A DNA stretch of 64,000 bases, taken from the NCBI GenBank assembly GCA_944323145.1, contig CALURJ010000002.1:62001-126000 (forward strand). Direction: 5' to 3'. The number at the start of each line of letters is the position of its first letter. The stretch's first letter is position 1. Below the pieces are notes generated by a model that ran no database searches, was not told where the DNA came from, and saw only the letters and a list, made by a program, of their open reading frames with translations. Below are positions 3,994 through 35,761 of this stretch, in pieces. The DNA is from Candidatus Gastranaerophilales bacterium. Its GTDB lineage: Bacteria > Cyanobacteriota > Vampirovibrionia > Gastranaerophilales > Gastranaerophilaceae. The position numbers and the translations under genes were made by a program.

Positions 3994-5216
3994 ATGAGAA
4001 ATATAGAGAGATTTTGTAGCTTCGGGGGGGGGGCACTCTAGGCTCCGTTGAAGGTCAGGAAGAAGATACTTGTTTTACTTGTCATTCCGCATTAGTTGCG
4101 GGATCTGCCGAAGGCTCGGAAGATAAGAAGATAGGAAGATATGCCTTTATCGGTGAGTGCAGCCTCCAAAAAAATAAATTCCTTTCCTTATTAGGGAAGG
4201 TAAGGATGGATTTCAAACAATACCCGCCCCATCTCTTCAGAGAAATAAAGCCTTTTCTAAATAGGGAAGGTTTGGAAGGGTTTCAATTATTCTGTTTCTT
4301 AAAAAGATTGCTATTGCTACCCACCCCTAACCCCTGTCTTGCCCGCTTTGCGATAAACGGGCACGGCTCCGCCTTTGGCCCTATGCAAAGCGGATGTTCC
4401 CTAATCAGGGAGGGGAAGGATAATTTCCCGAAACACACTTATCGTCCTAATATCTTAACGTCTTATTGTCTTAAGAAAAAAGTTGCCTTCACTCTTGCCG
4501 AGGTTCTAATTACTCTGGGGATTATCGGCGTTGTTGCCGCTATGACGATCCCAGTATTAATTGCTAAATATCAGGAAAAACAATGGACAACTGCTTATTT
4601 AAGAGTATATTCTTTGTTGGAAAATGCATATCGTATGGCACAGAATGAAAATGGAACTTTTGAAAATTGGGCGGGTGTTACACTGTCAATTAGTGAAGGA
4701 GATGGCGGCACAGATAGAACCAAGTCTGATGGCATGGCTATTTATAATACTATGATAAAGCCATATCTAAAGCTGAATAATACGTTTTTCCAATCATCAT
4801 GGGATTATGCTGCAACATGTATGTCAGGCTCCCAATTATATACTTTGGCAAATGAATATATGCCGCATGATTACGGATTTCCTATTGTTAGTCTGGCCTC
4901 AGGAGAATGTATTTCTTTAGGCGATAGAAGCGCGGATTTTTGGGTGGACCTTAATGGCAAAAAGAAACCAAATACTTTGGGTAAAGATATTTTTATGATT
5001 TCTTTTGATATTGTTACACGGGAACGCCTAAAACCTGGTTACATGGATCGTTGGTGGACTGATGTACCGGAATATTGCAATAGAGAAACTTCTTCAGGAA
5101 CCGGTTGGACAACCGGAACTTCCTGCGGGTTCTGGATATTAAGACATCATAATATGGACTATTTGCATCTCCCGTATGAAGAAGTTAAAAAGAAATGGAA
5201 CGGCGGCTGGTGGTAA
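3994..5216 (+). CDS. Prepilin-like protein with poly-G interrupted start (out of frame as sequenced)
   Basis: A strong ribosome site (aaggagg, 3980-3986) sits 7 bases before ATG 3994, which reads MRNIERFCSF and then enters ten G (4024-4033). As sequenced this frame stops at TAG 4039. With one more G (or two fewer) the frame joins, without a stop, the long frame that contains ATG 4206 and ends at 5216. In that frame a prepilin motif, KKVAFTLAEVLITLGIIG, begins about 165 residues in, followed by a Cys/Trp-rich domain ending WNGGWW. The stretch between start and motif is low-quality protein built from sequence that resembles dispersed intergenic repeats. ATG 4206 has no ribosome site. The gene is phase-off, frameshifted, or misread in the homopolymer. 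Confidence 0.65.
4024..4033 (+). repeat. Poly-G tract (10 G) that sets the frame of a prepilin gene
   Basis: Ten G lie 30 bases after the ATG at 3994. Eleven or eight G would join this start to the long downstream prepilin frame; ten G ends translation at 4039. Confidence 0.9.
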
Positions 5217-5221
5217 TAATA

Positions 5222-5245
5222 AAAAAAACCGCCGCAGCGGTTTTA
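5222..5245. terminator. Bidirectional intrinsic terminator
   Basis: AACCGC-CGCA-GCGGTT hairpin with A-run before and T-run after. It separates the convergent prepilin and ribbon-helix-helix genes and overlaps the end of the latter. Confidence 0.8.
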
Positions 5246-5431
5246 TTCTAAAAGTGATTCCAAAAGTTCGGCATTTTTTACCGAAGTTGTTGACTGGCGA
5301 ACTTTTTGTTTGTAGATGTAAGTCCTCAGAGCCTCGCGAATTAATTCGCTGCGGGAACGATTTTCTCCGTCTGCAACCTGATCAATCCTGTGTAGAAATT
5401 CTTCGGGCATAGAAATTAATACTCGTGCCAT
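5243..5431 (-). CDS. Ribbon-helix-helix (CopG/Arc-type) DNA-binding protein
   Basis: This 62-residue protein starts MARVLISMPEEFLHRIDQVA, a beta strand followed by a helix, then the turn and second helix SRSELIREALRTYI, the classic MetJ/Arc/CopG fold. It binds DNA as a dimer through the paired N-terminal strands. An aaggaga ribosome site precedes the ATG. No toxin partner is adjacent, so it may be an autonomous repressor rather than an antitoxin. Its targets cannot be told from the sequence. Confidence 0.8.
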   Translation of the reverse strand: MARVLISMPEEFLHRIDQVADGENRSRSELIREALRTYIYKQKVRQSTTSVKNAELLESLLE

Positions 5432-5673
5432 ATATTCTCCTTTTCTTTATCTAAATAGTTCGCTTATATTTAAATAAAAACAATTTGATTTAAAAAAGTG
5501 CTATTTTTTATTTAAAAAATATATACTAATTTTGAAAACTCTTATATATCGCTTGTTTTAAGGGTATCAAAAGCCTTAACAATTCTTAATAAAAATACCA
5601 AAGATTGTGTAATTAATCTCTTTACAATACACTTATTTTACGCTAGTATAAGGGAAAAGAGGTATCCTAAGGC

Positions 5674-6384
5674 ATGAGATATAAAAGAATATTACTTAAA
5701 ATAAGCGGAGAAGCATTACTCGGGGATCAACAATTCGGTATTGATCAAAAACCTGTTAAAATGATAGCCGGAGAAATACAAAAGGCACGTGAATTAGGTG
5801 CTGAGATAGCTGTTGTTGTTGGTGGCGGTAATATTTTTCGCGGAATGCGAAACAGCGCAAAACTCGGAATGGATCAGGCTTCAGGCGATTATGTCGGAAT
5901 GCTTGCAACTGTTATGAACGCAATTGCCCTGCAAAGTGCCTTAAATCAGATGAATATACCTTGCAGAGTTCAAAGTGCAATAACAATTAATCAGGTTGCC
6001 GAACCATATATAAGATATCGTGCAATCAGACATCTTGAAAAAGGCAGAGTTGTTATTTTTGCTGCCGGAACAGGAAATCCCTTTTTTACAACCGATACTG
6101 CCGCGGCTTTGAGAGCTTCGGAAATTAATGCAGAAGCCATGCTGATGGCTAAGAACGGTGTAGACGGAGTTTATACGGATGACCCGAAAACTAATCCTCA
6201 AGCTAAAAAATTAGATAAAATAACTTATGATGACATTATAGTTAAAGGTTTAAAAGTTATGGATACATCTGCCTGCGCTTTGTGTAAACAGAATAATATT
6301 CCTATTGTTGTGTTTGATTTTGATGCAGAAGATGCCATTACAGATATCTTAAAAGGTAAAGAAATAGGAACGTATATTAATTAA
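5674..6384 (+). CDS. pyrH: UMP kinase
   Basis: This cytoplasmic hexameric enzyme phosphorylates UMP to UDP for pyrimidine nucleotide synthesis. At 236 residues it has the usual length. The amino-acid-kinase fold is shown by ISGEALLG near the start, the GGGNIFRG loop, the DTAAALRA region and the nucleotide-binding GVDGVYTDDP segment near residue 165. It opens a tight operon with frr (24-base gap), cdsA, rnc and rpe, and pyrH-frr is a widely conserved pairing. A plausible promoter (TTTACA, TAGTAT) lies around 5625-5655. Confidence 0.97.
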   Translation: MRYKRILLKISGEALLGDQQFGIDQKPVKMIAGEIQKARELGAEIAVVVGGGNIFRGMRNSAKLGMDQASGDYVGMLATVMNAIALQSALNQMNIPCRVQSAITINQVAEPYIRYRAIRHLEKGRVVIFAAGTGNPFFTTDTAAALRASEINAEAMLMAKNGVDGVYTDDPKTNPQAKKLDKITYDDIIVKGLKVMDTSACALCKQNNIPIVVFDFDAEDAITDILKGKEIGTYIN

Positions 6385-25326: not shown

Positions 25327-25368
25327 CGGGAACGACGAGGCTCGAACTCGCGACCTCATGCGTGACAG
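25327..25368 (-). repeat. Left attachment site (attL): 3' fragment of tRNA-Asp
   Basis: These 42 bases are identical to 35687-35728, the 3' part of the intact tRNA-Asp from the anticodon loop to the discriminator base. Homology ends at 25369. This marks the left boundary of an element integrated by site-specific recombination into the tRNA gene. Confidence 0.93.
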
Positions 25369-25452
25369 AGTTTTTTTAAGTATAAAAATGCTGTATTTGC
25401 ACCGCTTTTATCCCTATGCAACTTTTCAAAAACAGCCTAAACTACATAGCAA

Positions 25453-25472
25453 TTACCCACCCATTACACACA
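25453..25472 (+). repeat. Candidate integrase arm-site pair, left end
   Basis: TTACCCAC-CC-ATTACACACA here matches TTACCCAC-AG-ATTACCCACA at 35621-35640 in the same orientation. The pairs lie 84 and 46 bases inside the two attachment cores, as expected for arm-type integrase or accessory-factor sites. Confidence 0.55.
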
Positions 25473-25580
25473 GATTTTTATTAAATAAAATATCAACTTT
25501 AATTTCAAAATAACAAATAACAATTTGTCTGTAATTTAATATTCATAATACTTTTGGTGTTGTTATCTTTTGTTATTTTA

Positions 25581-25621
25581 TGTAGACATAAGTATCTACA
25601 TAAACATAATTATGCTATAAT
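25581..25621 (+). promoter_or_regulatory. Toxin promoter with operator, probable leaderless start
   Basis: TGTAGA-(8)-TCTACA inverted repeat (25581-25600) covers the expected -35 region, and TATAAT lies at 25616-25621, six bases before the ATG at 25628. Transcription would start at or next to the ATG, and no ribosome site is present. Confidence 0.55.
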
Positions 25622-25627
25622 AAACGC

Positions 25628-25984
25628 ATGACAAAGCGTACAGAGGCATTGGAAGTATATTTTTATCAAACGAGTTCGGGAAATGAACCTGTTAGAGAGT
25701 GGCTTAAAGATTTACCAAGAGAAGATAAGAAAGCAATCGGCTTTGATATCAAAACTGTTCAATATGGCTATCCTATTGGAATGCCTTTGACTAGAGTTTT
25801 GCATGGCACAAATGGCTTAGAAGAAGTCCGCAGTAATGTATCAAACGGGATTGCAAGAGTTATCTTTTATGTCGAAGATAATACAATGGTATTATTACAC
25901 GCATTCATCAAGAAAAGTCAAAAGACGCCGCAAAAAGATTTAGATGTTGCAATCAAACGGTATAAAGAGCTATGCAAAAGATAA
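25628..25984 (+). CDS. HigB/RelE-superfamily toxin (phage Gp49-like)
   Basis: The 118-residue protein matches the Gp49-like HigB family. It has VREWLKDLPREDKKAIGFDIKTVQ near the start, GMPLTRVLHGTNGLEEVRSN, then ARVIFYVEDNTMVLLHAFIKKSQKTP and a C-terminal helix. Such toxins are ribosome-dependent mRNA interferases. Unusually, the antitoxin gene is convergent, not downstream in an operon, and the two coding ends overlap by 15 bases. It starts from a promoter with no room for a leader. Confidence 0.85.
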   Translation: MTKRTEALEVYFYQTSSGNEPVREWLKDLPREDKKAIGFDIKTVQYGYPIGMPLTRVLHGTNGLEEVRSNVSNGIARVIFYVEDNTMVLLHAFIKKSQKTPQKDLDVAIKRYKELCKR

Positions 25985-26254
25985 AATAATACGTTTGCCC
26001 AAGTATTTAGCGACTTTTTCTATTGTATTCAAGGTGATTGAAGTGTTTTCAGGGTCTAAAATACGGCAAATAGCTGTTCTTGAAGTTTCAAGTTCTTTTG
26101 CTAAGCGATTTACTGAAATATTATCTTCAAGCATTTTTTGTTCTAAAGCGTATGCAATAACCCTTTTTATTGCAACAGCTTCTGATTCTTGAAGCATATC
26201 TTCTTCTTCAAGAAAACTGTCAAAACTGGAGCCTATATGTTTTTTATCAATCAT
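25970..26254 (-). CDS. XRE-family antitoxin (HigA-like)
   Basis: The 94-residue protein ends with a helix-turn-helix: ISVNRLAKELETSRTAICRILDPENTSITLNTIEKVAKYLGK (residues about 46-88), the pattern of HigA/XRE antitoxins paired with Gp49-type toxins. The first 40 residues are acidic (SFLEEEDMLQESEA) and may wrap the toxin. Its own promoter region contains a perfect 12-bp inverted repeat. Convergent orientation means antisense overlap with the toxin mRNA is possible. Confidence 0.83.
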   Translation of the reverse strand: MIDKKHIGSSFDSFLEEEDMLQESEAVAIKRVIAYALEQKMLEDNISVNRLAKELETSRTAICRILDPENTSITLNTIEKVAKYLGKRIILSFA

Positions 26255-26279
26255 TTTTAATCATCCTTTTCTTATATTT

Positions 26280-26305
26280 ATATTGTACCAAAATTGGTAC
26301 AATAT
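26280..26305. promoter_or_regulatory. Operator palindrome upstream of the antitoxin gene
   Basis: ATATTGTACCAA-AA-TTGGTACAATAT, perfect 12-bp arms with a 2-base spacer, 25 bases before the antitoxin ATG on the minus strand. It likely binds the antitoxin itself. The half-site TACCAAAAT recurs within an inverted repeat at 31770-31793 inside the helicase gene, possibly by chance. Confidence 0.7.
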
Positions 26306-26549
26306 TTCAACCCCTATGTCAAAAATTTGTTAAAAAGCCTTAAAACACAGTCAAAACGAATATGTACAGTGTACTTTATTCCAATTATAATAATAAAAAT
26401 GGCTATTTCAGGCACTTTTGAACATTCAAACAGAATTATTAAATCCAGAATAAACGAGATTAAACGGAAACAGTATTTTAAATATTAAATATATATAAAA
26501 TTCAAAAAAGTTCAACGAGTGTCAATCTCGTATCAGCAGAGGTAGTTTT

Positions 26550-27287
26550 ATGGAAAAGATAGATTATTTAAAAGAATTTATGGCAAAACTGCAATCTTTA
26601 GACCGTTCGAGAAGTTTAACGATAGTGTTTAAAGACTTTTTGACACTATGTACCTGTTCATTAGCACAGACAATTTACAAAAGTGATGAATTAGAGCAAA
26701 GATACTTACAAACAGTAAAACAATATACAAAAGAGCAAGCAGAAGAATTTTCAAAACTGCTTGCTTTTTTAGTTATGGCACTAGAAGAAAAGTATCAAGA
26801 TTTCTTAGGTGAAGTATTTATGCGGTTGAATTTGGGAAACTCTTCTATTGGTCAGTACGAGACACCTTACACAGTAAGTAAATTTATGGCAGAAATAAAT
26901 TTTTCAGAACTCGAAATTTCTCAAAAGATTGCGAATAATCACCTGATAACACTTTCAGAACCTTGTTGCGGAAGCGGTGGAATGATTATAGCTTTAGCTG
27001 AAACTATGAAAGAACATAATTTTAATTATCAAAAATATCTTTACGTTGAGGCGATTGATATAGATGAAATGAGCTTTATGATGGCATATATTCAATTAAC
27101 ACTGCTTGGAATTCCTGCAAAAGTAATACAAGGCGACACTTTGACCTTGAAATTTCAACAGGTGCTTTTTACTCCGTTTTATTTTCTGAGCGGAATTGAA
27201 CAAAAACTGAAAAAACAATGCAAATTTAATGATTTAAAATCTTCAAACAATGTCAAAAATCAACAGCTGACTTTGTTTAATTTTTAA
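26550..27287 (+). CDS. N6-adenine methyltransferase-like protein lacking the NPPY catalytic motif
   Basis: The 245-residue protein resembles the HsdM/N6-methylase fold. Residues about 108-145 align with the GQYETPYTVSKFM region typical of type I methylases, then motif I appears as SEPCCGSGGMIIALAE (about 144-159) and the acidic motif II as EAIDIDEMSFMMAY. After QGDTLTLKFQQVLFTPFYFLSG no NPPY/NPPF catalytic motif follows. It should therefore bind S-adenosylmethionine but probably not methylate adenine in the standard way. Similar small proteins are carried by integrative elements. A ACGAG-(7)-CTCGT hairpin lies just upstream of its start (26515-26531). Confidence 0.75.
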   Translation: MEKIDYLKEFMAKLQSLDRSRSLTIVFKDFLTLCTCSLAQTIYKSDELEQRYLQTVKQYTKEQAEEFSKLLAFLVMALEEKYQDFLGEVFMRLNLGNSSIGQYETPYTVSKFMAEINFSELEISQKIANNHLITLSEPCCGSGGMIIALAETMKEHNFNYQKYLYVEAIDIDEMSFMMAYIQLTLLGIPAKVIQGDTLTLKFQQVLFTPFYFLSGIEQKLKKQCKFNDLKSSNNVKNQQLTLFNF

Positions 27288-27304
27288 TGGAAAGGAATAT
27301 TTCA

Positions 27305-27541
27305 ATGAAAATATATAAAGCAATAATCGTACCAACTGTAGCAGGCGGCAATATTGAGGTTAAAATATCTGCAAACAGTATAGGTCAGGCTATCGGAATA
27401 ATTAAGACACTACCGTACTTTAAGAGTTTAGTCAGACAGCCTGTACAAGAGGACACAGAAGACAACAATCTTACAAAAATCAGTGATTTAATCAAAAAAG
27501 CTAATGCTAAAGCTCAAGCGGATTTGGCAAAAATTGATTAA
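27305..27541 (+). CDS. Small protein of unknown function
   Basis: A ggaaagga ribosome site before ATG 27305 makes this the better start. An ATG at 27287 overlapping the previous stop is also possible. The 78-residue product, MKIYKAIIVPTVAGGNIEVK followed by NSIGQAIGIIKTLPYFKSL and a basic helix KANAKAQADLAKID, has no family I recognise. The spacing suggests co-transcription and perhaps partnership with the methyltransferase-like gene. Confidence 0.6.
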   Translation: MKIYKAIIVPTVAGGNIEVKISANSIGQAIGIIKTLPYFKSLVRQPVQEDTEDNNLTKISDLIKKANAKAQADLAKID

Positions 27542-27569
27542 TATAATACTGCTACTATATCTTATCTTA

Positions 27570-28085
27570 TTATATATATTTAGAATTCCAATTTTTAAAC
27601 AAATTAATATAGCTTGGCAATAAGCCACCGCAAGCCATCAGGTATATCATTATCACCATTATAAAAATACTTAAAATATTTTGCTCATTATTGTTAGTAC
27701 TATAAAAATTAAATAATAAAATGACTCCGGTAATATCCAATAAACATGCAATCAACAAAGTTATTTTCTGCCATTTTTTGTTAGTTTTAAATTCATCTAT
27801 TATTTTGGCAACAGTCAACTCTGAATATTTATCAAGAATACAATTATAAAGTTTAATTAAACCTTTCATTTTAATTTGCCAATGCACTATAAACAAAAAT
27901 AAAAACAATGGTATATATACAAATAGTAAGATTAGTAATATAAAAAAAGCATCTTCTGAATATAGTAGAAAAACTACAGCATAAAAAAAGATCACAGCAA
28001 ATAAAATAAACGAAATATTGAAATATAATAAAGTATTAATTAACACAATAAATATAATAGATAATATGTTAATAAGTTTTTCCAT
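27570..28085 (-). CDS. Four-helix membrane protein of unknown function
   Basis: The 171-residue protein has two hydrophobic hairpins (about residues 5-45 and 50-70, then 105-125 and 140-160) around a central hydrophilic segment (MKGLIKLYNCILDKYSELTVAKIIDEFKTNKKW). The central segment and layout resemble the protein at 28704-29144. It has no ribosome site and is divergent from the gene at 28154. It is a likely cargo gene of the element. Confidence 0.6.
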   Translation of the reverse strand: MEKLINILSIIFIVLINTLLYFNISFILFAVIFFYAVVFLLYSEDAFFILLILLFVYIPLFLFLFIVHWQIKMKGLIKLYNCILDKYSELTVAKIIDEFKTNKKWQKITLLIACLLDITGVILLFNFYSTNNNEQNILSIFIMVIMIYLMACGGLLPSYINLFKNWNSKYI

Positions 28086-28128
28086 AATTAATATATACCA
28101 GAAAAATTGTTTAGTCGGAAATTTATTA

Positions 28129-28147
28129 GCACATATTGTGCTATAAT
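28129..28147 (+). promoter_or_regulatory. Promoter with overlapping palindrome, probable leaderless start
   Basis: GCACA-TAT-TGTGC (28129-28141) abuts TATAAT (28142-28147), which is six bases before the ATG at 28154. The arrangement closely matches the toxin promoter (gctataataaa then five or six bases to ATG). Confidence 0.5.
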
Positions 28148-28153
28148 AAAAAC

Positions 28154-28654
28154 ATGAAACAGAAGGTGCTACAAATCGGCTTAATTATAATCATTCTTAC
28201 TATTTTGGTTTTAGTGTTTATTTTCGTAAAAATTACTAATAATTCAAATATATCTGATGTCGAGAAAAACTATCAAAAATCATTGAAATATATAACAAAT
28301 CAATCAGGAGTTAAACATTTCCCTGAAAAAATACCTGAGGATGCTAGAAATATAACAATATATAAAAATGCGGATTATTTTGGAAGTGAGAAAATTTATC
28401 TTAAATTTATAACAAATAAACAATATATTCAGAATGAACTTTCAAAATATGATTTTGTGGAAGTTGAAAAACCGGAAGAAAGAAATCGAAACTTGGAATT
28501 TTTGTCCTTATCTCCCGGAAACATAAGTTTATATACTTATAACCTTTATATAATTAAGAAAGGCTGTAATGAGCGAAGGAGATGTTTTTCATACGGGATT
28601 GCCGTAAACAACGAGTTAAATGAAATATTATATTATTACAGTTCTCCGGATTAA
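28154..28654 (+). CDS. Membrane-anchored protein of unknown function
   Basis: I choose ATG 28154 (MKQKVLQIGLIIIILTILVL), placed six bases after a TATAAT box. A longer frame from 28136 would start within the promoter. The 166-residue product has one N-terminal helix and a hydrophilic domain, presumably outside the membrane, with a C-terminal pair of cysteines (GCNERRRC). No family is recognised. It sits between two related membrane-protein genes in opposite orientation. Confidence 0.6.
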   Translation: MKQKVLQIGLIIIILTILVLVFIFVKITNNSNISDVEKNYQKSLKYITNQSGVKHFPEKIPEDARNITIYKNADYFGSEKIYLKFITNKQYIQNELSKYDFVEVEKPEERNRNLEFLSLSPGNISLYTYNLYIIKKGCNERRRCFSYGIAVNNELNEILYYYSSPD

Positions 28655-28703
28655 AAATAAAAAAGATGTTCCGTTTTGCAGGAATAAAATTCAAATAAAT
28701 TCT

Positions 28704-29144
28704 TTATCTGTCACTTAAGAATTTATCTTTAATCCACCACCAAATATACAAAATAACATAACTTGTAAATCCGGTCAGGCAAATTATATTAAACGGAAAT
28801 CGTTCCGGACAGTTAAAATCAAAGATAATTGGGGATATCATTGTAATTAACAAAATTCCGATTTTCCATTTCCAGCTGTGCTTTAGATTATGGATAAACT
28901 TTAACAGTATAGTTTCTTTGCTATGTTTTTCCATATATCCGTATAATATCGGTAATGCTACAATTCGAATAATAGTAGCTAATAACATCAATAATAAAAG
29001 AAAATATAAAATATAATTAGGTGTAGATTCACTAAGTAAAGCAAAAATCGTAAAAAACAAAAGAGTGGTTTTATAATCAATTAAAAAATAATTAACAGCC
29101 AAGACTATAATTACGTCATTCCAATAATATTTTAAAATATTCAT
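28704..29144 (-). CDS. Membrane protein of unknown function
   Basis: The 146-residue protein has about four hydrophobic helices with a central segment YGYMEKHSKETILLKFIHNL then HSWKWKIGILLI, comparable to the gene at 27570-28085. It lacks a ribosome site; a TAAAAT box lies six bases before the ATG on the minus strand, suggesting a leaderless transcript. It is a candidate element cargo gene. Confidence 0.55.
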   Translation of the reverse strand: MNILKYYWNDVIIVLAVNYFLIDYKTTLLFFTIFALLSESTPNYILYFLLLLMLLATIIRIVALPILYGYMEKHSKETILLKFIHNLKHSWKWKIGILLITMISPIIFDFNCPERFPFNIICLTGFTSYVILYIWWWIKDKFLSDR

Positions 29145-29167
29145 AAATGTATTTTATCAAAAACAAA

Positions 29168-29187
29168 GAGGGGAAAAGTTTCCCCTC
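29168..29187 (-). terminator. Intrinsic terminator
   Basis: GAGGGGAAA-AG-TTTCCCCTC stem followed on the minus strand by a T-rich tail, just past the end of the gene at 29195-29713. Confidence 0.75.
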
Positions 29188-29194
29188 CTCATAA

Positions 29195-29713
29195 TTAATA
29201 CATTTTAAATTTTATAGGTATTAAAATATAATAATTTTTCAGTAATCCAATTTGTTGAAGTATAAAAGCACTATTATTTATCCCTGCAGTACGCCAATTA
29301 TCAAGATGAAATTTTATCCAATCATAATCGTACAAATCAAACAGTATTCCTTTAAAATACCCGTTTTTATCAACGTTGGGTCTTATTATAGTGCCATGCC
29401 CGACAGAGTAATGTAAGTTTTTGTCCTGATTTAATTCAATAGGAATTTTGTCAGATATAAATTCCCCATTTCTGTATAATGATACAACTTGTTGTTGAAG
29501 CTGAGGTGAATTAGACAAATTTTGAGAGGTAGGGCTGTTATCCTCAAAAGCAACTCCGTTCCAGTCTAGAGGAATATCTACATTTAAATGTTTACTAATT
29601 GCTTTATTAAATTTTTTAGGAATTATCATATATTCAGGAGTCCTTGCATATGCATCCGGGAATGCTAATGCCATATCAATAAATTTCTTTGCATCCGGAC
29701 GATCTTGGTTCAT
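29195..29713 (-). CDS. Unknown protein, probably the C-terminal remnant of a larger gene
   Basis: The 172-residue frame starts MNQDRPDAKKFIDMALAFPD without a ribosome site. The same frame stays open further upstream (FFVDKFINDT before the Met), as if the gene once continued. The C-terminal region (VGHGTIIRPNV, GILFDLYDYDWIKFHLDNWR, QQIGLLKNYYILIPIKF) looks like a compact folded domain, but I cannot name it. A truncated effector or phage-derived protein is possible. Confidence 0.45.
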   Translation of the reverse strand: MNQDRPDAKKFIDMALAFPDAYARTPEYMIIPKKFNKAISKHLNVDIPLDWNGVAFEDNSPTSQNLSNSPQLQQQVVSLYRNGEFISDKIPIELNQDKNLHYSVGHGTIIRPNVDKNGYFKGILFDLYDYDWIKFHLDNWRTAGINNSAFILQQIGLLKNYYILIPIKFKMY

Positions 29714-29793
29714 TGTATCATTTATAAATTTATCGACAAAGAAACTCTAAAATTGATAAGAAAGAAGCATATCAACGTTTTATTACAACATCT

Positions 29794-30273: not shown

Positions 30274-30509
30274 ACCCTATGTAAAGATTTTTTTTAATTG
30301 TATTGTTACTGTATTTAGTACGAAATTTAAATTATTTTTCAGGTGGCTTATTGTATTGATTTTTCAGGTTTTTGAGGCGTTTTTCAATTTTTTTGAAACT
30401 TGGGTGCTCGCTTTGACAGCCGGTTCTGTTATGTGTTGTAATGAAGAATGTAAGGAATGTAAAACGGCTGAAACGCTGTCTTAACAGTCCTTTACAAAGT
30501 ATTACTCTT

Positions 30510-30773
30510 GATAAAATCCAAATATAATAATAAAAATAAGGATTTTATCGTAACAGACCCAAGCGGTCAGAAAGGATAAAGTTATGAAACCGAAATAAAA
30601 GAGCCTCAGTAAATTGACCAAGACTCCAAAAATAAATTTCCATTTATATTATATAAAAAATACAAGAGTCTTTCAAGCCCCTTTGGTCAATTTACGTAAC
30701 AAATTGAAACTTATCTCGCAGACAGTGGTCTATCCGACCCTCCGCGAGGCATGGGGAAGTTTCAAATTGTACG
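30510..30773. other. Highly structured region upstream of prim-pol; candidate replication origin or structured RNA
   Basis: There are three large inverted repeats in 264 bases. First, GATAAAATCC (30510-30519) pairs with GGATTTTATC (30540-30549). Second, GTAAATTGACCAA (30609-30621) pairs with TTGGTCAATTTAC (30683-30695), with an inner GACTC/GAGTC pair. Third, CGTAACAAATTGAAACTT (30695-30712) pairs with AAGTTTCAAATTGTACG (30757-30773), with inner CTCGC/GCGAG and AGAC/GTCT. The second and third stems share base 30695 and the core AAATTGA. No gene fits here. Position just before the replication genes favours an origin. Confidence 0.5.
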
Positions 30774-30802
30774 TTGACAATTAAATAGAAGGAGAAAAGA
30801 CT

Positions 30803-31654
30803 ATGTCTGAACCTTTAGATAAAATTGTTCTCCCGATAGAAAAACTCGCTTTCATTAAGGTTATTTCTAATGGCAAGAGACCTGCTGAAAAACACGGTTT
30901 TAAGGATGGTCAAACGGGTTTTGATGTCGCGGGAACACTAGCTTCGGGCTACAATTTAGGTTTTGTTATGGAACCTGATTTTATAGCCATAGATATGGAT
31001 GAAGACGCTGAAAAAGGTTACGAAGGCATAAAGGTTATTGAAAATCTTGAAAAAGAATTAGGTAATCTGCCTTCAACCTATACTCAACGGACTCCGCGAG
31101 GAGGTTTACATAAGGTGTTTTTAGCAAAAGGTTTGAAACATAAACCTACTGGTAAAATTACACCTGCTGTAGATGTGAAGTATTCAGGTTATATTCTTTT
31201 TCATGGCTCTTGCATAAATGGTAGATACTATCAAGCTGTTGAGGGTGTTACTGAAAACGGTCAACTGATTTTTTCAGCACTGCCGCAACAATGGCTTGAT
31301 TTTATAGAAACCAGTACAGCCAAAAAGAAGACTCCTTCAAATAGCCATAGTGAATACAAGCCTGTGGTTATTGAGGGAGATTTTGGCAAAATGTATGAAA
31401 ATTGCCCATTTGTTCGCAGATGTGTTGATTATTCATACTGTTTGTCTGAGCCGGAATGGCATCAATTTGCTCGTCTAATGAATAATTTTGAACGAGGTGA
31501 AGAATTGTTTATAGAATTCAGCAAAAACCATTCAGAGTTCAATCCAGAAGAAGCTAAGAAAAAATTCTTGTATGCACGGAAATACCCAGTTAATTGCCGA
31601 ACAATTAGCGAAGTATCAAGTGCATGCAAATCTTGTAATAATTTTATAAAATAA
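30803..31654 (+). CDS. Bifunctional DNA primase/polymerase (prim-pol domain)
   Basis: The 283-residue protein matches the N-terminal prim-pol domain of archaeal/phage/plasmid replication proteins: VISNGKRPAEKHGFKDG, the catalytic acidic IAIDMDED (residues about 72-79), QRTPRGGLHKVFLAKG, and VDVKYSGYILFHGS. A Cys-containing C-terminal region (CPFVRRC, CKSCNNF) may bind zinc. It primes and possibly extends DNA for the element. An aaggag site precedes the ATG, and the helicase gene follows by 13 bases. Confidence 0.85.
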   Translation: MSEPLDKIVLPIEKLAFIKVISNGKRPAEKHGFKDGQTGFDVAGTLASGYNLGFVMEPDFIAIDMDEDAEKGYEGIKVIENLEKELGNLPSTYTQRTPRGGLHKVFLAKGLKHKPTGKITPAVDVKYSGYILFHGSCINGRYYQAVEGVTENGQLIFSALPQQWLDFIETSTAKKKTPSNSHSEYKPVVIEGDFGKMYENCPFVRRCVDYSYCLSEPEWHQFARLMNNFERGEELFIEFSKNHSEFNPEEAKKKFLYARKYPVNCRTISEVSSACKSCNNFIK

Positions 31655-31667
31655 GGAGAAAATAAAA

Positions 31668-33572
31668 ATGACAAACGAGGTCAATAAGAGTATTCAAGCG
31701 GTTAAAACACCGCTTGAATTTGCAAAAAAAGATTTTGCAATCTGGCTAGAAAGCACCAAAACGAGCATACCAAAATATGCTCATTTTGGTACAAACTGGT
31801 CTATAAAACTTCCAAAAGATGTAGCCGAACCTGACATAAAAAAAGAAATCTTCTTTTATGAGAATTGTACTTATTGCTATTCTCAAAATTATGTCGGGAA
31901 GGATAAAACACCTACTGTTGTTATTAAAAAACTTGTAAACGGTGTACCTTTCAAGGTTGATTTACAGCTTTTAATTAGTAATAACAGAACGGAAGAAAAG
32001 CCTGTTGCAACAATCTGCATAGTCTTTAAACTTAACAATGGGAAACAGTCAAAACCTATTCTTTTAGACAGTAGAGCAAAAACAAAATATAGCGATTTTG
32101 TTCATGCGACTAATAAATCGAATAATAGATTACAGTTCAATCTTGATGATGAAAGTTTTATTTTGCTGATGGAAAAGCTAAATAAACTGAAAGCTGATAC
32201 AACTCTTGTTTTCAAGAACGCAGGAAATGTAAAATATCAAGATTTTAAAGGGCGTTTATATCAAAATTGTTATATTAGCAGTAACGGAATAATTGAAGCT
32301 GATGAAGATGGCATTGTTCATGTTGATGAATCTGCTATTAAATTGGGTGATAGTTATAAAGATAAACTGCCGAAGCTCTACTTAGATGAAATTGATGTGA
32401 AAGATTTATTACAAAAATTCTTTTCACAAGCAGAACAGGTCTATAGACAAAGGTTTGATGTTTTTCTAGCGTTAGGGGCTTCAGTAATGACTATTTTCAT
32501 TGATGATATTTGGCAAAGATATCTGGGATTTCCTGTGATTTACTTGTACGGTGCCACTAAACAAGGTAAAAGCATACTGCAAGGGATTATTAGTAATATT
32601 TTCGGATATTCAAACAAAAATGTATCAATGGGTAATAGTACTGATAATGCTATTGCAATGAAATGTCATAGGGCAAATGCAATCTCTGTACTTATTAATG
32701 ATTTTGATTATTATAAGTCGCAGGGAGTTGCTTTTGAAAACAACATAGTACAATTCTATGAAGGCGGAGTTAGAGAAAAGATGTATGACGGCGTTGTTAT
32801 GAATCGTATGCCGATTAATACAACAGCTATCTTTTCATCCAATTATCTTCCTGCTGATAAACCCAAAGTTTTCAATCGAATTTTGCCGGTATATTTCCCT
32901 GAAAATGGTATTGAAACAAAGTTTATTGATGACAAATTCGTAAATGATGAAAAACGTTCACGAATCATCGCTGAACTTATGAAATTTTCTAAAGAAACCA
33001 TACTGAATAAAATAAGCGAAGTTGAAAACTGGCTGTTACAATCAAAATTCTTTAATTCAAAGGATAGAGAAAGTAATAATGTCGCAATAGCATATACCGG
33101 ATTACTTTTACTAGAAGCAATTTCAGGCTATAAACTGTCTAATCAAGAAGCAAAATTAAGAGATTACTGTTCCTGGTATGAAAATCTATTTTCATCTGAA
33201 AATTCTCCAGTTGAAAGATTTTTAAATTCTTTACCAGGATTAGTCAATACTTCAAAGTTAAAAAAGGGAATTCATTTTCACGCGAAAATAGAGGATAGAA
33301 AATTTCTTTTTACTTTTGATTTTGCTAATTGCCTTAGAGTATACAATGATTTGGCTGTGCAGGGTGATACAACCCGATACATTGATAAGAGAATGTTTGG
33401 GACAGACCTTGCATCGTCAAAGTATTTTGTTAAAAGAGGCAATCAACGCTTTAATAATCCTCAAGGGCAAGCCTACGCTTATACTTTAGATATAACTTCA
33501 CATTCAGTTGTACCTTATATTAAAGTATGGGCTCAAAAACTTGATGAATTAAACAATAATGATTCTCAATAA
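31668..33572 (+). CDS. Replicative helicase-like ATPase (DUF927-type)
   Basis: The 634-residue protein contains a Walker A-like GATKQGKSILQGIIS (about residue 300) after FPVIYLY, an acidic Walker B-like segment SVLINDFDYY, and a sensor-like region NTTAIFSSNYLPADKPKVFNRILPV. This is the pattern of DUF927/D5-like helicases that follow prim-pol genes in plasmids and satellites. The first 230 residues are element-specific. It likely unwinds the origin upstream. Confidence 0.78.
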   Translation: MTNEVNKSIQAVKTPLEFAKKDFAIWLESTKTSIPKYAHFGTNWSIKLPKDVAEPDIKKEIFFYENCTYCYSQNYVGKDKTPTVVIKKLVNGVPFKVDLQLLISNNRTEEKPVATICIVFKLNNGKQSKPILLDSRAKTKYSDFVHATNKSNNRLQFNLDDESFILLMEKLNKLKADTTLVFKNAGNVKYQDFKGRLYQNCYISSNGIIEADEDGIVHVDESAIKLGDSYKDKLPKLYLDEIDVKDLLQKFFSQAEQVYRQRFDVFLALGASVMTIFIDDIWQRYLGFPVIYLYGATKQGKSILQGIISNIFGYSNKNVSMGNSTDNAIAMKCHRANAISVLINDFDYYKSQGVAFENNIVQFYEGGVREKMYDGVVMNRMPINTTAIFSSNYLPADKPKVFNRILPVYFPENGIETKFIDDKFVNDEKRSRIIAELMKFSKETILNKISEVENWLLQSKFFNSKDRESNNVAIAYTGLLLLEAISGYKLSNQEAKLRDYCSWYENLFSSENSPVERFLNSLPGLVNTSKLKKGIHFHAKIEDRKFLFTFDFANCLRVYNDLAVQGDTTRYIDKRMFGTDLASSKYFVKRGNQRFNNPQGQAYAYTLDITSHSVVPYIKVWAQKLDELNNNDSQ

Positions 33573-33589
33573 CAAAAAATAACAATACC

Positions 33590-33614
33590 GCGATGTACTC
33601 ATAGAGTACATCGC
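33590..33614. terminator. Strong hairpin between helicase and excisionase genes
   Basis: GCGATGTACTC-ATA-GAGTACATCGC, an 11-bp perfect stem. It extends outward through imperfect AATAACA-rich and TGTTATT-rich arms (about 33570-33637). The tail lacks a clean T-run, so it could be a terminator or a protein site. Confidence 0.6.
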
Positions 33615-33621
33615 AGGTAAT

Positions 33622-33673: not shown

Positions 33674-33862
33674 ATGAATAATTTAATAACTTTTAATGAA
33701 TTTACTAAACTGTTAAAGGCTAACCCGAATACAGTTAAATCTTGGAAAAGACGTGGAGATTTACCGCCCGAGATATTTTTCAAAATAGGCGGAACACTTT
33801 ATGTCTTGGAAGATAAGTTTAATGATTGGATTACAAAACAACAGGCAAAGATTGGAGCTTAA
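33674..33862 (+). CDS. Excisionase-like helix-turn-helix protein
   Basis: The 62-residue protein begins MNNLITFNEFTKLLKANPNT, then VKSWKRRGDLPPEIFFKIGG, a MerR/Xis-type winged helix-turn-helix. The wing LYVLEDKFNDWI is typical of excisionase/AlpA-like DNA-binding proteins. An aaggag site precedes it, and the integrase starts one base after its stop. This supports a role in excision or in control of the integrase. Confidence 0.8.
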   Translation: MNNLITFNEFTKLLKANPNTVKSWKRRGDLPPEIFFKIGGTLYVLEDKFNDWITKQQAKIGA

Positions 33863-33863
33863 T

Positions 33864-34940
33864 ATGAGTGTATATAAGAAGAAAAATAATAAATGGTATT
33901 ACCAGTTTATGTTAAATGGTGAAAGGAAGCACGGGATTTGTCCCGGTGCTTCCGATAAAAAAGAAGCTGAACAATACGAAAATAGTATCAAGTTCAGACT
34001 GGCACAACAACAAAACGGATTTATGCCAAGAGAAGAAAAGAATGTTCCACTGTATAAATTAAGAGAAGTTTATAAAATTTATGCAAAAAATAATAAGAAA
34101 AGTTATAAAAGCGATAAGTATGCATTACAAGTGATTTTATTCTACTTTGGTGCAAATGCTATTGTTCAGCATATAACACCTACTCAAATAGAAAAGTTCA
34201 AAGAATGGTTAAAAACAGAAAGAGAAGTTAAAAATTCCACAATTAATCATTATTTAGTGCTGTTGAGCAAAATGTTTAATGTCGGCATTGATAATGCAAT
34301 TATAAGAAATAACCCTATTCAAAAAGTATCAAAGTTAAGAGAAGACAATCATAAAATCAGATACTTAACTAAAGCAGAAGAAAGTCGATTATTTGATGAG
34401 ATTGAGCGTGAATATGAGGTTTTAGACAAATATACAAAGAAAACAAAAATTGTTCAGCCTTATTTATATCTAAAGCCTATCATTATAACGGCATTACACA
34501 CTGGTATGCGTAGAGGTGAAATATTGAACTTAAAGTGGAGTAATATTGATTTTGCTCAAGGATTTATAGAACTTCTTGAAACAAAATCTGGCAAGTCAAG
34601 AAAGATACCGATTTCAGCCTCTTTACATCAAGTTTTGAAAAATATTAAGCCTACTTCTGAATATGTATTTGTTAATCCACAGACAAATGAACCTTATAAA
34701 GATTTGAAAAAATCGTTTCATACAGTTCTTGAAAAAGCAGGAATTAAGAATTTCCGCTTTCATGATTTAAGACATACTGTTGCAACAAGACTTGTTGAGA
34801 AAGGCATAGATTTGACAGTTGTACAAGAAATCTTAGGGCATTCAAAGATTACAACAACACAAAGATATGCTCACCCTGTACCACAACGAAAACTCGATGC
34901 AATCGAAGTTCTTAACTCCTATATAAATGAGAGCCCTTAA
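33864..34940 (+). CDS. int: Tyrosine recombinase (phage-type integrase)
   Basis: I place the start at ATG 33864 (MSVYKKKNNKWYYQFMLNG), just after the excisionase stop; a longer frame from 33801 overlaps that gene. The 358-residue protein has the N-terminal AP2-like arm-binding region, a SAM-like core-binding domain, and the catalytic domain. Arg appears in HTGMRRGEILNLKW, His-x-x-Arg in FHDLRHTVATR, and GHSKITTTQRYAH contains the nucleophilic tyrosine. It would catalyse insertion into the tRNA-Asp 3' end 0.75 kb away. Confidence 0.95.
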   Translation: MSVYKKKNNKWYYQFMLNGERKHGICPGASDKKEAEQYENSIKFRLAQQQNGFMPREEKNVPLYKLREVYKIYAKNNKKSYKSDKYALQVILFYFGANAIVQHITPTQIEKFKEWLKTEREVKNSTINHYLVLLSKMFNVGIDNAIIRNNPIQKVSKLREDNHKIRYLTKAEESRLFDEIEREYEVLDKYTKKTKIVQPYLYLKPIIITALHTGMRRGEILNLKWSNIDFAQGFIELLETKSGKSRKIPISASLHQVLKNIKPTSEYVFVNPQTNEPYKDLKKSFHTVLEKAGIKNFRFHDLRHTVATRLVEKGIDLTVVQEILGHSKITTTQRYAHPVPQRKLDAIEVLNSYINESP

Positions 34941-34947
34941 CATTACG

Positions 34948-35529
34948 TTAAGGGCTTTTAGTGTGTTTATATTTTTCAAAATATTTAGATATAATATCAT
35001 AGTAAAATTCATTTATCCTTAAAATTGTATGAGTAAACGTAGAAGATAAGATTATATTCAATCCTATGCCAAACAATCTTGCATTTATATAATTTGCATC
35101 AGCGGGTACGCTACTATAACCGCTCTCATTATTTGGGAAGGCAACTTCGCAGCTATTTTCTTCAATAAATTGATATAGGATATCTTTTTGCATAGGCGTT
35201 AGTTTCATAATTACCTTTTCAGCCATTTTATATATATGTTCTAACTCGTTTAAATATTCTTCTTCCTGTTGTTTCTCAATTTGTTTTTGTCTAATATATG
35301 CTCTTACATAATTACAAGTTTTATCAAATAAAAAAATAATACTAAACAACCATATAATAAAGAAAGTACTTCGTAATATATCTGTAAAAATAGTATGAAT
35401 CATATAATGTCTAATAACGAAAAAGTCAAAGACAAAATAAGCTGTTGATATAAACAATGTGAATATAATAGTGGGATAGTTAAAGTTTTTAATTTCTTTT
35501 ATAAATAGTTCTAAAAGACTTTTATCCAT
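34948..35529 (-). CDS. Two-helix membrane protein, SieB-like (possible superinfection exclusion)
   Basis: The 193-residue protein has two membrane helices (about residues 18-40 and 48-68), a charged helical linker (RQKQIEKQQEEEYLNELEHIY), then LTPMQKDILYQFIEENSCEVAF and a C-terminal globular part. This layout resembles the SieB superinfection-exclusion family, though I judge by pattern only. Its place between integrase and attachment site, on the opposite strand, is a typical spot for defence cargo in satellites. A consensus caaggag site precedes its ATG. Confidence 0.55.
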   Translation of the reverse strand: MDKSLLELFIKEIKNFNYPTIIFTLFISTAYFVFDFFVIRHYMIHTIFTDILRSTFFIIWLFSIIFLFDKTCNYVRAYIRQKQIEKQQEEEYLNELEHIYKMAEKVIMKLTPMQKDILYQFIEENSCEVAFPNNESGYSSVPADANYINARLFGIGLNIILSSTFTHTILRINEFYYDIISKYFEKYKHTKSP

Positions 35530-35620
35530 TTTGTACTCCTTGATGAATTTTATTATAACATAACTGATGAACTATTTATGTATAAGTTGCTCAATATGAA
35601 CAAAAGTTGAGTTTATAGAA

Positions 35621-35640
35621 TTACCCACAGATTACCCACA
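35621..35640 (+). repeat. Candidate integrase arm-site pair, right end
   Basis: TTACCCAC-AG-ATTACCCACA, partner of the pair at 25453-25472, lying 46 bases from the right attachment core. Confidence 0.55.
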
Positions 35641-35653
35641 CGAATTTTCGCAT

Positions 35654-35680
35654 TAAAAAAGAGAGTCTTAAACCCTCTTA
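35654..35680 (-). terminator. Element-supplied terminator for tRNA-Asp
   Basis: On the minus strand AAGAG...CTCTT followed by a T-run lies just past the tRNA 3' end, replacing the displaced original terminator at 25292-25323. The stem is short. Confidence 0.5.
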
Positions 35681-35683
35681 AAA

Positions 35684-35761
35684 TGGCGGGAACGACGAGG
35701 CTCGAACTCGCGACCTCATGCGTGACAGGCATGCGCTCTAACCAAACTGAGCTACGCTCCC
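35684..35761 (-). tRNA. tRNA-Asp (GTC), with encoded CCA
   Basis: The minus strand folds as a full cloverleaf: acceptor GGGAGCG with CGTTCCC, D-arm GCTCAGTTTGGTTAGAGC, anticodon loop CTGTCAC (anticodon GTC), and T-arm containing GTTCGAG. A discriminator G and CCA complete the 3' end. Bases 35687-35728 are the right attachment core. Its 3' end is the element's copy. The displaced fragment at the left end lacks CCA, as does tRNA-Trp in this window. Confidence 0.96.
35687..35728 (-). repeat. Right attachment site (attR) within tRNA-Asp
   Basis: Identical over 42 bases to 25327-25368; marks the right end of the integrated element. Confidence 0.93.

Follow-up and report, generated by a model that had tools for sequence, protein, structure and literature searches.

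A probable countertranscribed-RNA control locus in the prim-pol operon leader of an integrative element from Gastranaerophilales

Introduction

Control of copy number by antisense RNA is textbook biology for plasmids. In the I-complex plasmids, the leader ahead of repZ/repA forms a pseudoknot, and this pairing of a loop with a downstream segment acts as the switch; the leader peptide of these plasmids is longer than the four-codon ORF that we describe below. Satellite phage P4, an integrating element, directs a small RNA, CI, at the leader of its replication operon, for immunity, and the gene for this RNA shares the strand of the leader that it targets.

In pSK41, one of the staphylococcal RepA_N plasmids, RNAI is complementary to a part of the rep leader that lies about 100 nt before the start; once bound, it brings about a stem in which the ribosome-binding site (RBS) is hidden, without attenuation. 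In pT181, a leader segment, the ‘pre-emptor’, takes up the 5′ arm of the inhibitory stem by pairing as long as no antisense RNA is bound (both PMC5703833). The I-complex plasmids (IncI, IncB and IncK) possess both an RNAI and a leader peptide (PMC10286972 and PMC10724649). SGI1 is a chromosome-integrated island that replicates after excision and has a leader-peptide gene before repA (PMC10954446). PrimPol-PV1 genes have been described in tRNA-integrated elements, in a paper whose main text never says ‘antisense’ (PMC5862659). Within the open-licence PMC literature, we found no paper that joins antisense control to integrative prim-pol elements. Antisense copy control is known; its setting here, an integrative prim-pol element with a minigene, appears to be new.

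The locus lies in a 64,000-nt stretch of DNA from a Candidatus Gastranaerophilales bacterium, the whole of which we call the window. We put at roughly 0.7 the probability that region 30510–30773 is a countertranscribed-RNA control locus in the leader of the prim-pol operon, where binding of an antisense RNA shuts prim-pol translation. Judged from its letters, the region contains a candidate sigma-70-type promoter and a predicted terminator hairpin, both on the minus strand, and a downstream sense-strand complement to the loop of the hairpin.

The element and its operon

The prim-pol, helicase-like, HTH and integrase genes belong to an integrative mobile element, approximately 10.4 kb long, situated at tRNA-Asp. 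We class it as integrative because it carries an integrase gene and two identical 42-bp direct repeats, copies of the attachment site: the left at 25327–25368, and the right at 35687–35728, inside the tRNA-Asp gene (35684–35761, minus strand), for a span of ~10.36 kb. The operon is on the plus strand. The Shine-Dalgarno sequence (SD) at 30787–30794 precedes prim-pol (30803–31654; PF09250), which is followed by a putative P-loop helicase/ATPase (31668–33572), an excisionase-like HTH_17 protein (33674–33862) and a tyrosine integrase (33864–34940). The putative helicase matches no Pfam family and has a Walker-A-like motif by eye; its fold prediction is poor (pLDDT 61, and below 50 in the P-loop part), and no convincing relative was found among solved structures.

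The element has other contents. At 26550–27287 is an N6-DNA-methylase-like cargo gene that strongly matches PHROG 5696, a family without an assigned function there. A Gp49 (PF05973) toxin-like gene (25628–25984, plus strand) and a small convergent ORF (25970–26254, minus strand) are also cargo, and possibly form a toxin–antitoxin pair in which the antitoxin is putative. Between the helicase and HTH genes, at ~33588–33617, is a strong palindromic hairpin, CCGCGATGTACTCATAGAGTACATCGCAG, with a minus-strand terminator score of 17.0, which could be a terminator or, alternatively, an origin or operator. Related elements occupy the same tRNA-Asp elsewhere. In L103 (G024:C15:84000-98500), the left cargo is 93% identical to 25340–29729 and the right end 98.6% identical to 34826–35702, and ~1.4 kb of other DNA replaces the prim-pol/helicase/integrase block. 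In L104 (G020:C25:1-8000), at 4317–6359, another element at tRNA-Asp, its integrase end 98% identical, has a different 353-aa ORF between the integrase and the tRNA; the integrase–tRNA interval looks like a cargo site. Farther along the window, 45559–45760 matches the ribosomal protein L10 leader (RF00557), barely over the gathering score.

Three stems in the leader

A first-pass annotation had described 30510–30773 as a gene-free stretch filled by three large stems, two of them sharing base 30695 and a common core, and had offered three explanations: an origin recognized by the prim-pol/helicase pair, a single-strand origin, or a structured regulatory RNA. The stems are present, on the plus strand, where it placed them. 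Stem 1 (30510–30519/30540–30549), in the 5′ part of the leader, pairs at 10 of 10 bp with its arms 20 nt apart; stem 2 (30609–30621/30683–30695) pairs at 13 of 13 bp with its arms 61 nt apart; and stem 3 (30699–30712/30757–30770) pairs at 13 of 14 bp with its arms 44 nt apart. As plus-strand RNA (z −3.5), minus-strand RNA (z −5.1) and plus-strand DNA (z −5.7) alike, the region has a better fold than any of 100 dinucleotide shuffles. The core, AAATTGA/TCAATTT, is found in two stems as claimed; the shared base depends on where the stems are cut, for a short extension takes stem 3 back to ~30694. ‘Gene-free’ needs correcting, too, since the stretch contains a conserved four-codon ORF with its own SD and, on the minus strand, a predicted antisense RNA gene.

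In the sense RNA, stem 2 joins the loop of a hairpin, P1, to its complement farther downstream, P2′, and stem 3 is situated between P2′ and the RBS. In L036 (genome G252), the sole leader that aligns with the window DNA throughout, a hairpin of other sequence occupies the position of stem 1, and stem 3 keeps its lower stem with the tip swapped for a different hairpin. A sequence before the SD that we take to resemble boxA was considered. An invertible promoter (inverton) was dropped as a candidate: the two arms are not symmetric, and the −35 box lies in a bulge that only one of them has.

A predicted antisense RNA gene

Searching the genus with the DNA of the whole region returned the region itself and short AT-rich matches only, and single prim-pol sequences matched nothing among IMG/VR and GTDB contigs; an alignment of five prim-pols did find relatives, of which those with an organism name are Candidatus Gastranaerophilales records. 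Prim-pol homologues occur in 30 of 383 genomes of the family, and in 31 of 383 drawn from the order (the sets overlap). Prim-pol had no matches in a phage collection and one distant match in a plasmid collection. The module tests below cover upstream stretches of relatives other than those from IMG/VR (L069–L080).

The constant parts of L036 and other leaders can be interpreted on the minus strand only: TATAAT and a TTGA-type −35 box sit in the AT-rich loop and 3′ arm, and a hairpin and T-run come next. The leader of the prim-pol operon is predicted to carry a minus-strand antisense RNA gene. In the window, the −35 box TTGAAA (30671–30676) and −10 box TATAAT (30648–30653) are separated by a spacer of 17; the predicted RNA, ~50 nt, spans 30592–30641 if the start is set 7 nt beyond the −10 box; and the terminator hairpin, which on the plus strand is the target hairpin P1, occupies 30600–30627, with a T-run reaching 30592. 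An independent consensus scan ranked the same promoter (11/12 matches) and terminator best in the region. The predicted 50-nt RNA has a fold of −12.6 kcal/mol, which none of 200 shuffles matches, and the region scored above the gathering score of no Rfam family of copy-control RNAs.

Scored as a module—minus-strand promoter plus terminator, within 400 nt before 32 prim-pols—this arrangement reaches 12, a cut-off picked after the scores were known, in 14 of 32 leaders; the plus strand does so in one of the 32, and 1.4% of 9600 shuffles do. The module is wholly absent from nine of the 32 homologous leaders (L033, L047–L049, L051, L053–L055 and L057), and L040 has a promoter and, by eye, no terminator. 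When the scan was lengthened to at most 1500 nt upstream in 17 leaders, minus modules appeared in seven. The full anatomy precedes the first gene of the operon, prim-pol being second, in L032, L035, L042 and L043 (as well as L044 and L045); L034 is doubtful, its P1–P2′ pairing (P2) weak and its sense hairpin almost equally stable. The distant minus modules of L027 and L056 were taken as ordinary terminators. Sense promoters are inconsistently placed among leaders.

A control survey took in 67 genes with an upstream gap of at least 150 nt, from 13 sequences. Twelve had a minus module of at least 12 inside that gap, and seven of these were prim-pol leaders. The module together with P2 (p ≤ 0.01, dG ≤ −12) preceded six of the 67, five of them prim-pol and the sixth an integrase-like ORF in L104. 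The prim-pol enrichment for module plus P2 has a Fisher p of 3.3e-5, with eight of the 67 genes taken as prim-pol leaders by our own count.

Predicted pairing between P1 and P2′

P2′ (30665–30695, plus strand; core 30683–30695) is the complement of the P1 loop and the proposed anti-RBS strand. In 12 of the 14 module leaders, tested against 500 shuffles, P1 is complementary (p ≤ 0.01) to a downstream segment before the start codon; the exceptions are L025 and, at its first, nearest hairpin, L032. After extension to 19 leaders p is ≤0.010 in all, in a set that was partly selected for P2, and so is not independent, and in which L043–L045 are identical here and L039/L041 nearly so.

L025 has a minus-strand module without significant P2; by eye its loop could pair with an anti-SD strand, which we did not count. 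Upstream of prim-pol, L025 and L021 have a variant leader in which a 10-bp inverted repeat pairs straight with the SD (CTCCTTGTTG/CAACAAGGAG), and a longer, different antisense module farther upstream.

Covariation, the check that the first-pass annotation had proposed, is found in P2. Across L043, L042, L032 and L035 the 13-bp helix is 94% paired, six of its 13 pairs have changed on both sides, and one of 500 shuffles reaches the covariation score; sliding the partner by 1–3 columns drops pairing to 35–49%. For L028, L031 and L026 (the A4 test) the signal goes in the same direction, weakly (56 of 500 shuffles are as high). The window and L036 have identical P2, and hence do not covary, and the Group G alignment (L039, L041, L058, L029 and L037) has 18 broken P2 cells, mostly from the misaligned L029 and L037. 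Because the arms differ between relatives while complementarity is kept, with changes on both sides of pairs, the third of the early explanations, a structured regulatory RNA, gains support.

A proposed switch on prim-pol translation

If the parts work together as we propose, the P1 loop of the sense leader would pair with P2′ in a loop-to-downstream pseudoknot, the RBS would stay open, and prim-pol would be made. The antisense RNA, an exact complement of P1, would bind P1 and release P2′, and the released P2′ would pair with the SD or start region, instead, turning prim-pol translation off and perhaps, further downstream, that of the helicase, excisionase and integrase. Antisense RNA increasing with the copies of the element would limit copy number after excision, and the same switch would keep the element quiescent while integrated and render those that share a loop incompatible with each other.

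The RBS-hiding step was modeled by folding leaders in which P1 and the antisense stretch were barred from pairing, as if antisense RNA were bound, with or without P2′ barred as well. Free P2′ makes the SD costlier to open in 16 of 17 leaders (11/12, plus 5/5 that are operon-leading). Blocking any strand tends to lower the cost of opening the SD, hence a control with shuffled P2′; against this, SD cost is higher at p ≤ 0.05 in five of 12 leaders, and Fisher p for the 12, which are related and not independent, is 2.6e-6 (SD) and 3.9e-7 (RBS). For the five operon-leading leaders Fisher p is 0.023 for the SD, and singly p is 0.06–0.25. L035 goes in the wrong direction over the RBS, and L026 is not significant. 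In the window the SD becomes harder to open when P2′ is occupied, from 2.6 to 4.2 kcal/mol, against the model; the cost over SD-to-AUG falls from 8.8 to 7.5 kcal/mol, the right direction (p = 0.14), and in the minimum-energy antisense-bound fold P2′ pairs with the stretch before the AUG. The folding suggests that free P2′ hides the RBS and P1 pre-empts it, a step that the window's own leader fits weakly.

Directly before P1, the window has an SD and a four-codon ORF (30569–30598, plus strand; ORF 30584–30598), ATG AAA CCG AAA TAA, which encodes MKPK. An SD followed by ATG AAR CCN AAR TAA occurs at this place in the window, L036, L032, L035, L042 and L043–L045—eight of the 19 leaders, six of them distinct—and is missing from the others; in the leaders examined, changes in it are synonymous only. 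A pattern search of 383 genomes found the ORF in 10 (reversed control, 0), seven being prim-pol leaders and three elsewhere; the pattern misses L042, whose SD is AGAGGAG. The SD–MKPK ORFs outside prim-pol leaders (L099, L100 and L101) lie by eye beside phage late genes, in prophage late regions, and in L100 and L101 the ORF is followed directly by a shared hairpin. In the subgroup with MKPK, window included, a ribosome finishing this ORF would halt at the base of P1, on its 5′ side, where it could act as a gate on the switch.

Other readings

The same antisense switch might serve quiescence or superinfection immunity of the integrated element, not copy number. We hold this as a tentative possibility: the prim-pol, helicase, HTH and integrase genes are co-oriented behind the leader, and L032 and L034, whose prim-pols are close, have different leaders, both points in its favor, but no evidence separates it from a role in copy number, and both may hold.

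Antisense control could operate, instead, by transcription attenuation of the pT181/pIP501 type, binding of the antisense RNA letting a plus-strand terminator form before prim-pol. The antisense anatomy would be identical; L031 (8.0) and L041 (7.6) have weak plus-strand terminator-like hairpins, and L033, which lacks the module, has a T-tailed plus-strand hairpin by eye. Between P2′ and the start, however, 15 of 19 leaders, the window's included, have no plus-strand terminator, and the other four have weak ones. Because of this, the switch most likely acts on translation, and attenuation seems rather unlikely.

We doubt still more that the region is a replication origin or single-strand origin for the prim-pol/helicase pair, with the stems as DNA hairpins flanking an AT-rich unwinding region. 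Strong folding as DNA, the AT-rich loop and the place before replication genes would suit an origin, but the minus-strand promoter accounts for the loop, the arms vary freely with complementarity kept, the module is 640–810 nt ahead of prim-pol where another gene intervenes, there are no iteron-like repeats in 30300–30900, and the hairpin folds better on one strand: the antisense fold beats the sense fold in 19 of 19 leaders, some near-identical and all chosen as minus-strand terminators. Both origin proposals of the first-pass annotation are left unsupported, though an origin in or near the region keeps a small probability.

That the modules are intergenic terminators arisen by chance, together with AT-rich sequences that merely look like promoters, might be suggested by the five of 12 module-bearing control-survey genes that are not prim-pol; it is very unlikely given the module's frequency in leaders and shuffles, P2, and covariation.

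Possible exchange of leaders

On the prim-pol tree the module needs seven changes, four forced by supported branches, and is no more clustered than expected by chance (64 of 500 shuffles need no more changes). P1 and P2′ are almost the same in L039/L041 and L058, whose prim-pols are distant, and L032 and L034 show the converse; this mismatch of leader and prim-pol fits a swapping of control cassettes. From here one can speculate, and we rate it a good deal below an even chance, that Gastranaerophilales has lineage-wide integrative prim-pol replicons with interchangeable antisense ‘incompatibility cassettes’, swapped to escape incompatibility, in which the P1 loop mimics the RBS, P2′ complements both, and a ribosome terminating on the MKPK minigene waits at the foot of P1, gating the switch.

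If our reading of the locus is true, a brake on replication of the kind that plasmids have is built into these chromosome-integrated elements, which probably also fall into incompatibility groups, and this in bacteria from whose lineage few replicons have been described. The MKPK ORF would then rank among the shortest regulatory ORFs.

Comparison with known systems

Set against the papers cited above, the locus resembles pSK41 in having an antisense RNA gene in the leader of its replication gene, here as a predicted promoter and terminator. RNAI of pSK41 is ~83 nt long with two stem-loops, whereas the RNA predicted here is ~50 nt with one. The initiator there is RepA_N; here we find a PF09250 prim-pol, in an integrative element of a non-Firmicute host, with a four-codon ORF in a subgroup of leaders. 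Folding supports an RBS-hiding stem of the pSK41 type across leaders, the window itself not being significant. The model has in common with pT181 a leader segment that pre-empts the inhibitory pairing until antisense RNA binds; pT181 acts mainly by transcription termination, and most of the leaders here lack such a terminator.

With the I-complex plasmids the locus shares a predicted antisense RNA to a leader stem-loop, a leader ORF in eight of 19 leaders and, judged by complementarity alone, pairing of the target loop with a downstream leader segment. It differs from them in that their initiator is of the RepA type, and in that the anti-RBS strand here appears to be none other than P2′. Like P4 CI, the RNA would be a small one acting on a replication-operon leader, but from the opposite strand. 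SGI1, finally, has an IncN2-type RepA and is controlled by activators (PMC10954446); the element described here, by contrast, would have an antisense RNA before its prim-pol, instead.
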